64,000 nt of DNA from Pseudoalteromonas sp. NC201 (GTDB lineage: Bacteria > Pseudomonadota > Gammaproteobacteria > Enterobacterales > Alteromonadaceae), in contig NZ_CP022522.1 in assembly GCF_002850255.1 (NCBI RefSeq), positions 1,478,986 through 1,542,985 on the forward strand. The letters are read 5' to 3'. The notes under the pieces are model-generated. The model made no database searches. It worked only from the letters and a program-made list of their open reading frames with translations, and had not been told where the DNA came from. Position numbers and translations under genes: made by a program. Shown here piece by piece: positions 44,735 through 47,340 of the stretch. How positions within the stretch are numbered: the first letter of the stretch is position 1; each line of letters starts with the position of its first letter.

Positions 44735-44771
44735 TTTAAACGTTTAGCGAAATAAATATTTAGACGTTTGG
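44735..44771 (+). promoter_or_regulatory. Direct repeat upstream of the EGKCG peptide gene
   Basis: TTTAAACGTTTAG (44735-44747) and TTTAGACGTTTGG (44759-44771) share 11 of 13 bases and begin 24 bases apart, ending 42 bases before the start codon. They could be a regulator's paired operators or part of an alternative-sigma promoter. Confidence 0.4.
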
Positions 44772-44812
44772 GTCTACTTATTGAATCTACTATTTCTGAG
44801 AGAGCAAACATT

Positions 44813-45352
44813 ATGAATACCGTTAAAAAGAACTCTATTGCCCTTACTTTAAGCGCTGTTGTTGCGGGTACCGCGGGGTTAACCGCGACGGACGCAAGTG
44901 CTAATCCATTTAGTTTTGAAACAATGACTGCCGGTTATCAACTTGACGCTGGTGAAGGCAAATGCGGCGAAGGCAAATGTGGTGGCGACGCTAAAGGCAA
45001 AAAAGAAGGTAAGTGCGGCGAAGGCAAATGCGGTGGCGATGCTAAAGGCAAAAAAGAAGGTAAGTGCGGCGAAGGCAAATGCGGTGGCGATGCTAAAGGC
45101 AAAAAAGAAGGTAAGTGCGGCGAAGGCAAATGCGGTGGTGACGCCAAAGGTAAGAAAGAAGGTAAGTGCGGCGAAGGCAAATGTGGTGGCGACGCTAAAG
45201 GTAAAAAAGAAGGTAAGTGCGGCGAAGGCAAATGCGGTGGCGACGCCAAAGGCAAAAAAGAAGGTAAGTGCGGCGAAGGTAAATGTGGTGGCGACGCCAA
45301 AGGCAAAAAAGAAGGTAAGTGCGGAGAAGGTAAATGCGGTGGTAACCACTAA
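44813..45352 (+). CDS. Bufferin/HvfA-type RiPP precursor with 16 EGKCG motifs
   Basis: A 179-residue secreted precursor. A Sec signal peptide (cleavage after DASA, residue 30) precedes a short spacer (NPFSFETMTAGYQLDAG). The rest is eight tandem 17-residue units EGKCGEGKCGG-DAKGKK, the last ending GGNH. All 16 cysteines sit in EGKCG pentapeptides. Such motifs are the substrates of DUF692/MNIO enzymes, which convert the cysteines to copper-binding heterocycles (bufferins of Caulobacter; HvfA of Haemophilus). The DUF692 and DUF2063 genes follow directly. Known precursors carry far fewer motifs. ATG 44813 is preceded by GAGAG and gives a clean signal peptide. Copper as the ligand is inferred from the family. 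Confidence 0.9.
   Translation: MNTVKKNSIALTLSAVVAGTAGLTATDASANPFSFETMTAGYQLDAGEGKCGEGKCGGDAKGKKEGKCGEGKCGGDAKGKKEGKCGEGKCGGDAKGKKEGKCGEGKCGGDAKGKKEGKCGEGKCGGDAKGKKEGKCGEGKCGGDAKGKKEGKCGEGKCGGDAKGKKEGKCGEGKCGGNH
44954..45343 (+). repeat. 51-bp coding minisatellite, 7 full units plus a 33-bp partial unit
   Basis: Exact 51-base periodicity starting at 44954 (units at 44954, 45005, 45056, 45107, 45158, 45209, 45260, 45311). Units 2 and 3 are identical. All base differences among the full units are at third codon positions and are synonymous (e.g. TGT/TGC, GAC/GAT, GCT/GCC), so the peptide sequence is held constant while the DNA drifts. Confidence 0.96.
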
Positions 45353-45373
45353 ATAGGAATACCATTGTATTCG

Positions 45374-45420
45374 ACCCAATAGCGCAGCTAGTTATGTTAA
45401 GGTAAGCGGCGCTATTGGGT
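45374..45420 (+). promoter_or_regulatory. Hairpin between precursor and modifying-enzyme genes (attenuator candidate)
   Basis: ACCCAATAGCGC (45374-45385) pairs perfectly with GCGCTATTGGGT (45409-45420); GGAAT/ATTCC may extend the stem. No T tract follows. In many RiPP operons such a structure keeps the precursor transcript more abundant than the enzyme message; that use here is inference. Confidence 0.6.
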
Positions 45421-45507
45421 AATTCCAAAGTGAAGCCGTGCATACAGTAAAGCCTTTGTGATGCGAGCTTCTGATTATTTCAAAATAATGTCTAAAGTGA
45501 GAGAAGT

Positions 45508-46344
45508 ATGACAGTGCAGTTAGGCAACTTAGGACTTGGTTTACGCCGTGAAATGGTCGATGATGTGCTTAATACACCACCAAAGCAAGTAGACTTTTAT
45601 GAGGTTGCACCAGAAAACTGGCTAAAATTTGGCGGTAAGCTTGCAAAGCAATTTCAAGCATTGACGCAACAACATACCTTTATCTGTCATGGCTTATCGT
45701 TATCGCTAGGTTCACCTGCACCGCTTGATCGTGAATTTTTATCACAACTAAAAACATTTTTTAAACAGCATAATATCGCTACGTACAGTGAGCATCTGAG
45801 TTATTGTTCGGGAGAGGGTCATATGTACGATCTGATGCCAATCCCTTTTACGGAAGAAGCAATCCATCATACAGCTAAGCGGATCCGAGCGGTCCAAGAA
45901 CATCTAGAACGTCGAATTGCTGTAGAAAATGTGTCTTACTATGCGGCTCCTGGACAACAAATGTCGGAGTTAGAATTTACCCTTGGGGTATTGGCTGAGG
46001 CCGATTGCGATTTGCTACTCGATGTCAACAACATCTATGTCAACGCTATTAACCATGGCTACGATGCTGAACAATTCTTAGCGGCTATGCCAAGCGAGCG
46101 TATTGTATATGGCCATATCGCAGGCCATTATGTGGAAGCCGAAGATTTACTCGTTGATACTCACGGCGCTGAGGTATCTTCGCCAGTATGGGACTTGTTA
46201 GATAAAGCCTATGAGCTTCATGGGGTATTCCCGACGTTACTAGAGCGAGATTTTAATATTCCTCCTATGGCAGAATTACTGGCAGAAGCGGGGCAAATTT
46301 CTTCAATACAGGCCAAATACGCCAAGCGCTTGGAGCAGGTATAG
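45508..46344 (+). CDS. bufB: DUF692 multinuclear non-heme iron oxidase (MNIO), RiPP-modifying enzyme
   Basis: A 278-residue TIM-barrel enzyme of the DUF692/MNIO family (the family of MbnB, BufB and HvfB), which uses a multi-iron centre and oxygen to convert cysteines in precursor peptides. Iron-ligand contexts are visible: ICHGLSLSLGS (His), TYSEHLSYC (Glu/His), VENVSYYA (Glu-Asn), LLLDVNNIYVNA (Asp-Asn), YGHIAGHY (His), DTHGAEV (Asp/His) and LLERDFNIP (Glu). The start of the DUF2063 partner gene lies 2 bases after its stop, and the precursor gene lies 155 bases upstream. The symbol follows the bufferin nomenclature; hvfB would be equivalent. Confidence 0.9.
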   Translation: MTVQLGNLGLGLRREMVDDVLNTPPKQVDFYEVAPENWLKFGGKLAKQFQALTQQHTFICHGLSLSLGSPAPLDREFLSQLKTFFKQHNIATYSEHLSYCSGEGHMYDLMPIPFTEEAIHHTAKRIRAVQEHLERRIAVENVSYYAAPGQQMSELEFTLGVLAEADCDLLLDVNNIYVNAINHGYDAEQFLAAMPSERIVYGHIAGHYVEAEDLLVDTHGAEVSSPVWDLLDKAYELHGVFPTLLERDFNIPPMAELLAEAGQISSIQAKYAKRLEQV

Positions 46345-46346
46345 TT

Positions 46347-47096
46347 ATGTCTTTTGTAGAAACTCAGCGGCAGTTTATGGCGCATATTAGAGATCCAGAC
46401 AACCAACCTGCGCCTGATGGCGTAGAAGCTCGGCGATTAAAAATCTATCAAGAGCTGTTTTTTAATAATGTTGAAGGCTTCGTGAGCAGTGCGTTTCCTG
46501 TACTTAAAAGCTTGTATACTAATGAAGATTGGTTGACGTTAATTAGGCTATTTTTTGTTAAGCACGATTGTCATTCGCCATACTTTTTAGAGATTAGCAA
46601 AGAGTTCTTGCAGTTTTTACAAACAGAATACGAGCCCTCTGAAGCTGATCCTGAGTTCTTGTTAGAGCTTGCTCACTATGAATGGCTAGAGCTAGATGTA
46701 GCAACGACCGTTGAAGCAGAGCATGAGCTTTCGATTAAGGTACAAGCGCTTGCAGATGTTGAAATTAGCTTGGCAAGTACAGCCAGAGTTGCACATTATC
46801 AATATCCGGTTCATCAGATCAGTGAAACCTTTAGGCCAACTAAAACAGCAGGGCAAACGTTTAGCTTTGCATTGTATAGAGACGAAGAGGACGAAGTTCA
46901 GTTTGTCGCACTAAATCCGATGACGGCCTTAATGTTGTCGGTGATTGAAGCCAATGATGGTATGCAACTCACTGACACTGTGGATGTTATAGCGCAGCAA
47001 GTGCCTCAGTTTACCGTTGAACAGCTGCAGCAAGGGGCACGGCATACACTAGCTGAATTCGCAGATCTTGGCATTATCAAAACAAAAAACCTTTAA
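46347..47096 (+). CDS. bufC: DUF2063 partner protein of the MNIO enzyme (BufC/HvfC type)
   Basis: A 249-residue protein with an N-terminal DUF2063 domain (about residues 1-95: FVETQRQFMAHIRDP..., RRLKIYQELFFNNVEGFVSSAFPVLKSLY). The C-terminal region is alpha/beta, with ALNPMTALMLSVIEAN near the end. DUF2063 was originally called DNA-binding, but in bufferin and HvfA systems this protein is the precursor-recognition partner that delivers the peptide to the MNIO enzyme. It is translationally linked to bufB. No DoxX-type membrane gene, common in such operons, follows. Confidence 0.88.
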   Translation: MSFVETQRQFMAHIRDPDNQPAPDGVEARRLKIYQELFFNNVEGFVSSAFPVLKSLYTNEDWLTLIRLFFVKHDCHSPYFLEISKEFLQFLQTEYEPSEADPEFLLELAHYEWLELDVATTVEAEHELSIKVQALADVEISLASTARVAHYQYPVHQISETFRPTKTAGQTFSFALYRDEEDEVQFVALNPMTALMLSVIEANDGMQLTDTVDVIAQQVPQFTVEQLQQGARHTLAEFADLGIIKTKNL

Positions 47097-47220: not shown

Positions 47221-47340
47221 ATGTCTAAAGGTGACTTTAAAGATCCGTTCAATGCAAAGTATTTCCTTGCATTTGTTGCTGTATTCGCTGGAATTGGTTG
47301 TTTAAACGCGATTCTAGGCTGGGCAACAGCGCTTGCATAA
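47221..47340 (+). CDS. 39-residue single-helix membrane peptide
   Basis: ATG at 47221 preceded by AAAGGTAG. The peptide begins with a charged stretch (MSKGDFKDPFNAKY) and continues with one membrane helix (FLAFVAVFAGIGCLNAILGWA). A Rho-independent terminator lies 25 bases after the stop, and the peptide has a coherent composition, so it is likely a real small gene. It starts 124 bases after bufC. I do not recognise it; it could be a small subunit of a membrane complex or an accessory of the RiPP operon. Confidence 0.6.
   Translation: MSKGDFKDPFNAKYFLAFVAVFAGIGCLNAILGWATALA

Follow-up and report, generated by a model that had tools for sequence, protein, structure and literature searches.

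A repeat-type hvfABC operon of Pseudoalteromonas sp. NC201 and its probable place in a stress regulon split between two loci

The subject of this report is hvfABC, a three-gene operon for a cysteine-rich precursor peptide (HvfA), its MNIO maturase (HvfB) and a DUF2063 partner (HvfC), which lies in a 64,000-nucleotide stretch of the chromosome of Pseudoalteromonas sp. NC201 (contig NZ_CP022522.1, forward-strand positions 1,478,986 to 1,542,985; hereafter the window). The genome is 5.38 Mb in two contigs. We suggest that this chromosomal operon probably makes a repeat-type HvfA (Buf_EGKCG/oxazolin, captophorin) Cu(I) metallophore and that it is part, together with hvfX, of one split stress regulon. 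This suggestion builds on the identities of the genes, the structure of the repeat and the selection acting on it, conservation of the locus throughout the genus, an upstream element that hvfA shares with hvfX, and the unlinked position of hvfX.

Comparisons within the genus were made with 108 Pseudoalteromonas genomes, the source genome included. Precursors were read in 107 loci. In a first set of 96, 89 precursors were complete (that of the window included) and seven were dropped because they were cut by contig ends, masked or broken; a further 11 loci gave six complete precursors (4-14 KCG) and five cut ones. Published work is cited by PubMed Central (PMC) number.

The hvfABC operon and its repeated precursor

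hvfA (44813..45352, forward strand; ATG at 44813, stop codon at 45350-45352) encodes a repeat-type HvfA-family precursor of 179 residues with 16 EGKCG motifs. It begins with a putative Sec-type signal peptide and leader (MNTVKKNSIALTLSAVVAGTAGLTATDASANPFSFETMTAGYQLDAG; 44813..44953, forward strand), in which a basic n-region, a hydrophobic core and an ASA-like site are recognised by eye and by hydropathy; the leader residues N31, P32 and F33 as well as G41 and Y42 are invariant in a 22-row alignment. The repeat array follows (44954..45349, forward strand) and consists of seven full 51-bp units and one short unit, with two EGKCG per unit (Tandem Repeats Finder: period 51, 7.6 copies, 94% matches, score 659). 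All 16 cysteines of HvfA lie within an EGKCG, there is none elsewhere in the protein, and the motif is absent from the rest of the window in all six frames. When the residues of HvfA were shuffled at random, at most two EGKCG arose in 20,000 trials.

The seven full units, of 17 residues each (EGKCGEGKCGGDAKGKK), are identical as protein, and the eighth is short (EGKCGEGKCGGNH). At the level of DNA, the seven full units have a mean identity of 93%; nine of the 51 columns vary, all of them third codon positions, and the 74 pairwise differences are all synonymous with none changing an amino acid. The eight units amount to seven distinct DNA sequences, the short last unit being one of these. The purely synonymous differences mean that selection maintains the repeat at the protein level and that the array is not a new one; a recent expansion in the window was rejected because of the seven distinct versions of the unit.

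Profile models agree with these assignments. HvfA matches NF050137 (KCGExKCG_twice) with 110.4 bits (cut-off 19.5) and has no Pfam match. hvfB (45508..46344, forward strand) encodes an MNIO (PF05114) peptide maturase, with 435.9 bits for NF003818 (cut-off 360) and 350.1 for PF05114; the BufB model gives 271.3, below its cut-off of 310. hvfC (46347..47096, forward strand) encodes the DUF2063 partner, which carries a RiPP recognition element (RRE; RiPP, ribosomally synthesised and post-translationally modified peptide) and matches NF050145 (289.6 bits, cut-off 142), PF09836 and PF22106. Among solved structures, 3bww is the best match of HvfB and 3dee the sole match of HvfC. Across the 89 HvfB proteins of the genus (tblastn segments), 98 positions are invariant, N174, N175, D217 and H219 included. 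As judged from motifs, these four would correspond to N175, D242 and H244 of Haemophilus influenzae HvfB, the site-3 residues whose loss abolishes activity of that enzyme (PMC13419390).

A preliminary description of this DNA had placed a precursor with eight double-EGKCG units and 16 cysteines upstream of an MNIO and a DUF2063 gene. Its coordinates are exact, and the family and gene roles that it named are confirmed by NF050137, NF003818 and NF050145, each above cut-off. The perfect 17-residue repeat that it reported holds for the protein in the seven full units, though not for the DNA, and its proposal of a many-site modified copper peptide finds support by analogy with relatives.

The 158-nt intergenic stretch between hvfA and hvfB folds with z = -3.25 and contains a hairpin (ACCCAATAGCGC...GCGCTATTGGGT; 45374..45420, forward strand) with no T tract. 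Of the 89 intergenic stretches of the genus, 61 have a stem of 8 bp or more that includes at least four GC pairs, versus a mean of 3.6 and a maximum of 8 in 20 shuffles. The sequence of the stem is clade-specific, and runs of T follow some of the stems, not that of the window. A repeated-element origin of the hairpin was rejected, since the 91-bp stretch is single-copy in the genome. The hairpin likely acts as a partial terminator or as a protector of the mRNA end that raises the amount of precursor over that of enzyme.

Gene order and repeat number across the genus

The hvf locus is nearly universal in the genus. Matches to the HvfA model are present in 105 of the 108 genomes; among the other three, G042 and G083 are positive with an HvfB query (a precursor fragment lies at the contig end), and G006 has neither an HvfA-model nor an HvfB match. 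With tblastn, the hvfA leader was found in 102 of the 107 loci, dusC in 102, hvfB in 101, hvfC in 101 and apt in 78; some of the missing matches belong to loci that stop short. The order dusC (divergent), hvfA, hvfB, hvfC, a small open reading frame (ORF) and apt is complete in 69 of the 74 loci of at least 6 kb; of the five exceptions, apt is missing from this place in four, and the fifth is truncated by the end of its contig. In 73 of these 74 long loci hvfB and hvfC adjoin hvfA, and the remaining one is cut by the contig end. The small ORF between hvfC and apt encodes a hydrophobic 39-residue protein (MSKGDFKDPFNAKYFLAFVAVFAGIGCLNAILGWATALA; window 47221-47340, forward strand), which has a tblastn match in 85 of the 107 loci.

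None of the 107 loci contains an HvfX match by tblastn. Given this absence and the shared block in 69 of 74 long loci, the three-gene, DoxX-less hvfABC operon is the genus norm. The preliminary description was correct that the operon has no DoxX gene, but the genome has one, of the HvfX family, elsewhere, and the idea that the missing DoxX marks a variant architecture is rejected.

The number of repeats is highly variable. The 89 complete precursors have 8-58 cysteines (median 14), with at least 16 in 21 of them and more than 16 in 10, and are 110-536 residues long (median 162), two of the lengths being a few residues too high because of an untrimmed start codon. None of the six further complete precursors has 16 or more KCG. 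Thus, HvfA of the window, with 16 cysteines, is of middle size. The great expansion and exceptional length ascribed to it earlier do not stand: a survey of homologues had been set beforehand as the test that could refute this claim, and the survey finds such lengths to be commonplace. The context of the cysteines is almost constant, with KCG at 1271 and EGKCG at 1255 of 1272 cysteines. Among 19 species pairs whose HvfB proteins are at least 98% identical, five agree in cysteine count, as do 14 of 65 pairs at 95-98%; six near relatives whose HvfB is 96-99% identical to that of the window have 10, 13, 16, 16, 17 and 58 cysteines. Repeat number is therefore labile even between species with near-identical HvfB. 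In the 58-cysteine precursor of genome G045 (locus L042), 20 consecutive 51-bp units are identical; unlike the array of the window, this one is a fresh tandem expansion. In a wider sample of the order, the KCGExKCG domain was found in 110 of 394 genomes, four of this genus among the matches listed.

Much of this is in print for the Buf_EGKCG family, for which a 17-residue double-EGKCG repeat, a size range of 31-506 residues, gene sets of precursor, MNIO, DUF2063 and DoxX "in various combinations" and the threading of long precursors through the enzyme are described (PMC12452194). Published members share with HvfA of the window the repeat length, the two EGKCG per repeat and the adjoining MNIO and DUF2063 genes, as well as a signal peptide, which in HvfA of the window is putative; the longest of them (P. 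piscicida, 58 cysteines; PMC12452194) and the modelled one (P. byunsanensis) are from the same genus, and we see no essential difference. The kind of system, its repeat and its variable length are already known, the operon is a normal member of the family, and the long precursor therefore adds little as a discovery. Across the genus, related enzymes face from 8 to 58 sites, a natural series in which to study how MNIO enzymes process long substrates.

Unlinked hvfX and a shared upstream element

The sole DoxX match of the source genome is an HvfX-family protein (NF050144 215.7, cut-off 80). Its gene, hvfX, lies outside the window, approximately 0.66 Mb from hvfABC, on the reverse strand (G000:C1:2181137-2181841; L041:1156-1863). 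DoxX matches are present in 107 of the 108 genomes, not all of them necessarily HvfX; the 76 loci studied among the matches listed have open frames of 227-267 residues, and all 76 match HvfX of the source genome. G006, which is without hvfA and hvfB matches, is likewise without an HvfX match.

Upstream of hvfA lies a candidate promoter of the extracytoplasmic function (ECF) sigma type, CGAAAT-N16-GGGTCTA (44748..44776, forward strand), which ends 36 nt before the ATG. Read as TGAAAGT-N16-GTCT, it has what we take to be the geometry of an ECF-sigma promoter. A strict form, GAAA-N17/18-GGTC, was defined on hvfA upstream regions, and a relaxed form was set after looking at hvfX. The strict element precedes hvfA in 88 of 89 genus loci, versus 0.20 on average and 2 at most in 50 shuffles, and the relaxed one is likewise present in 88 of 89 (shuffle mean 0.66, max 3). 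The distance from the ATG differs between clades. Upstream of hvfX, the strict element is found in 53 of 76 loci (shuffle mean 0.50, max 2) and the relaxed one in 74 of 76 (shuffle mean 0.76, max 4); the copy in the source genome ends 34 nt before the hvfX ATG. The relaxed element precedes the control genes of the hvf loci in one of 78 cases for apt and in none of 102 for dusC. A scan for sigma-70 promoters was uninformative, with three matches against 6.5 expected. HvfX, the DoxX partner, has been retained and seems to be regulated together with hvfABC even though it is unlinked, which supports a shared function.

Outside the genus, the strict motif occurs in eight of the 29 order loci examined (spacing of 16-19 allowed, no shuffle control). 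Among 80 named loci, the three non-Pseudoalteromonas loci with the strict motif are L353, L362 and L392, and L362 contains an HvfX match as well. In the open-licence literature, our searches turned up no description of such an element upstream of Pseudoalteromonas hvf genes. A parallel exists in H. influenzae, where hypochlorous acid (HOCl) induces a DoxX/COG3767/COG3220/DUF2063 cluster; this induction is strongly dependent on RpoE2, an ECF factor, and the cluster is similar to the Neisseria SigE regulon with its trx-msrAB (PMC7907618).

A variant of the element ends 34 nt before the ATG of a redoxin/thioredoxin-like gene outside the window (L308:1501-2046, forward strand), the product of which has a CGVC motif and an N-terminal hydrophobic stretch (PF08534 64.8, cut-off 26.6). 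Matches to this gene are present in 84 of the 108 genomes. The relaxed element is kept at 21 of the 30 loci examined (shuffles: mean 0.36, max 2), the strict one at none. Eight of the nine loci without the relaxed element, that of G052 included, are at 61-65% identity and have lost GGTC; the ninth, at 97%, has an altered -35. The gene was accordingly rejected as a full member of the regulon, its membership being only partial.

A model for the hvf system and its alternatives

The closest characterised systems act on the same motif with the same enzymes, and in these relatives modification and copper binding are reported (PMC13097082, PMC12538549). The H. influenzae HvfABC/HvfX system (oxazolin; PMC13419390, PMC7907618) is alike in the roles of HvfA, HvfB and HvfC and in its EGKCGEGKCG cores. 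However, its HvfA has six modifiable cysteines versus 16 in the window, HvfX is inside the operon there and unlinked in Pseudoalteromonas, the equivalog model NF050188 is not reached by HvfA of the window, and ECF control is shown in H. influenzae whereas in the window it is indicated by an ECF-like element. In the fontiphorin (FonABC) and gonophorin captophorins, an MNIO and PME1 (DUF2063) likewise act on EGKCG, and the class, named captophorins, has 5-thiooxazole as its product (PMC13097082); FonA has seven sites and established product chemistry, whereas HvfA of the window has 16 sites and a predicted product. MmrABC, which makes bulbicupramide in Microbulbifer, also has two-cysteine cassettes and hvfABC-like genes in a marine gammaproteobacterium, but differs from the window in having precursors with five to eight cysteines and no expression seen (PMC12538549).

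By analogy with these systems, we propose the following model. HvfC would bind the signal-peptide/leader region of HvfA and hold the precursor on HvfB, which would oxidise successive EGKCG cysteines to 5-thiooxazoles with the loss of four hydrogens each; H. influenzae HvfA without its signal sequence is hardly modified (PMC13419390). The modified chain would be exported by Sec and bind several Cu(I) in the periplasm or beyond. As a seven-site relative binds up to four Cu (PMC13097082), 16 sites need not mean 16 Cu. The hairpin would yield more precursor than enzyme, and hvfABC and the unlinked hvfX, preceded by the same ECF-type element, would form one split stress regulon. The silence of Microbulbifer under copper fits control of the ECF type no less well than a switch that responds to copper alone, and the shared element provides a concrete promoter with which to find the true inducing signal after these negative expression data. 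An extension of the model, to which we give an even chance, is that one promoter type serves hvfABC, HvfX and, in part, a membrane-anchored thioredoxin-like protein, that HvfX and a periplasmic thiol/redox step serve maturation or use of the peptide although they lie outside its operon, and that repeat number is a free setting of dose. On this extended reading, the inducer would be envelope oxidative or thiol stress and not copper alone, and such an inducer could explain why marine relatives appeared silent under copper.

Several points weigh against this model. Modification and copper binding in the source organism are predicted from relatives; export is likewise predicted, and sigma control would follow from a candidate element for which no sigma factor was identified, though no search aimed at the ECF factors of the genome was made. 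Genome-wide, the element is no more frequent than a reversed-pattern control (41 versus 49 and 8 versus 9), and in the absence of enrichment the case for it lies in its position and conservation, in counts for which, as in the survey as a whole, related species are not independent. HvfA scores 75.8 bits with the HvfA equivalog model NF050188, under the cut-off of 95, which none of the 108 genomes passes; on model scores, it is filed as a member of the HvfA family and not as the NF050188 equivalog. An AlphaFold2 model of HvfA (22 sequences) had a mean confidence (pLDDT) of 38.6 and was unusable, so that it neither confirms nor contradicts the published beta-helix. In G058, hvfABC is present but no DoxX/HvfX match; one co-loss of hvf and HvfX (G006) plus this exception prove little. 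In Microbulbifer, the homologues were not detected in the proteome either with or without added copper, their co-expression improved growth of E. coli at 2 mM CuSO4 no more than slightly, and a role in copper protection is assigned with hesitation (PMC12538549).

Three other explanations deserve consideration. The HvfA product could be mainly a sink or sensor for oxidants or electrophiles in the envelope, with copper binding secondary. The ECF-type element on hvfA, hvfX and partly on the thioredoxin-like gene, induction of the H. influenzae cluster by HOCl (PMC7907618) and the lack of a copper response in Microbulbifer (PMC12538549) are in line with this idea, but relatives bind Cu(I) (PMC13097082, PMC12538549) and the bufferin Buf1 improves growth in copper excess (PMC12452194). 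An ECF factor might also be activated by copper stress, so the two roles cannot be told apart from the promoter. We regard a mainly oxidant-directed function as rather doubtful. It also appears unlikely that HvfA is a multi-core RiPP, cut in its Lys-rich linkers (GDAKGKK) into identical peptides with two thiooxazoles each, so that repeats multiply the dose. Identical cores, basic linkers and a repeat number that varies freely between close species, as expected if copies set yield only, would suit such a product, and PMC13097082 leaves unclear whether the mature product is a single polypeptide or is digested. However, on reading the ORF list of the window we recognised no protease gene between dusC and apt, and in Microbulbifer neither a protease close to mmr nor such peptides in extracts are reported (PMC12538549).

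The remaining explanation, that HvfA is an unmodified, metallothionein-like protein whose free thiols bind metal because HvfB and HvfC skip most sites, we consider very improbable. Sixteen cysteines in Lys/Glu-rich repeats could bind metal unmodified, and modification of 16 sites requires iterative processing. Yet it is the whole EGKCG that is conserved and not the cysteine alone (1255 of 1272), hvfB and hvfC stand beside hvfA in all but one of the 74 long loci, and shorter relatives are fully or nearly fully modified (PMC13097082, PMC13419390). The model of a modified copper-binding chain under stress control thus remains the one that we favour.

Further MNIO genes were seen beyond the hvf locus. 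Close HvfB relatives are present in methanotrophs (loci L334-L390, mostly Methylococcales); in 30 of these 57 loci a count of KCG found no EGKCG-type precursor within the stretch taken, some stretches being cut short, and the HvfB relatives there may have a different substrate. BufA2 bufferins are, like HvfA, a family of MNIO-modified periplasmic metallophores, but with another precursor family and a BufB-type enzyme, and the source genome has one on contig 2 (L001; G000:C2, ~934400-936561). This BufA2 (NF050166 125.3, cut-off 60) has duplicated Cys-rich domains and, by eye, a lipobox-like LVGC, and is followed by a BufB-type MNIO (377.4, cut-off 310) and a weakly HvfC-like protein (31.5, cut-off 142). 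A third MNIO on the same contig (L003:527-3748; G000:C2, ~839427-840221) is also of the BufB type (345.7, cut-off 310) and has a weakly HvfC-like partner. The 457-residue ORF upstream of it, which has no Pfam or NCBIfam match and shows by eye a BufA2-like cysteine pattern in its later part, may be a large fused precursor.

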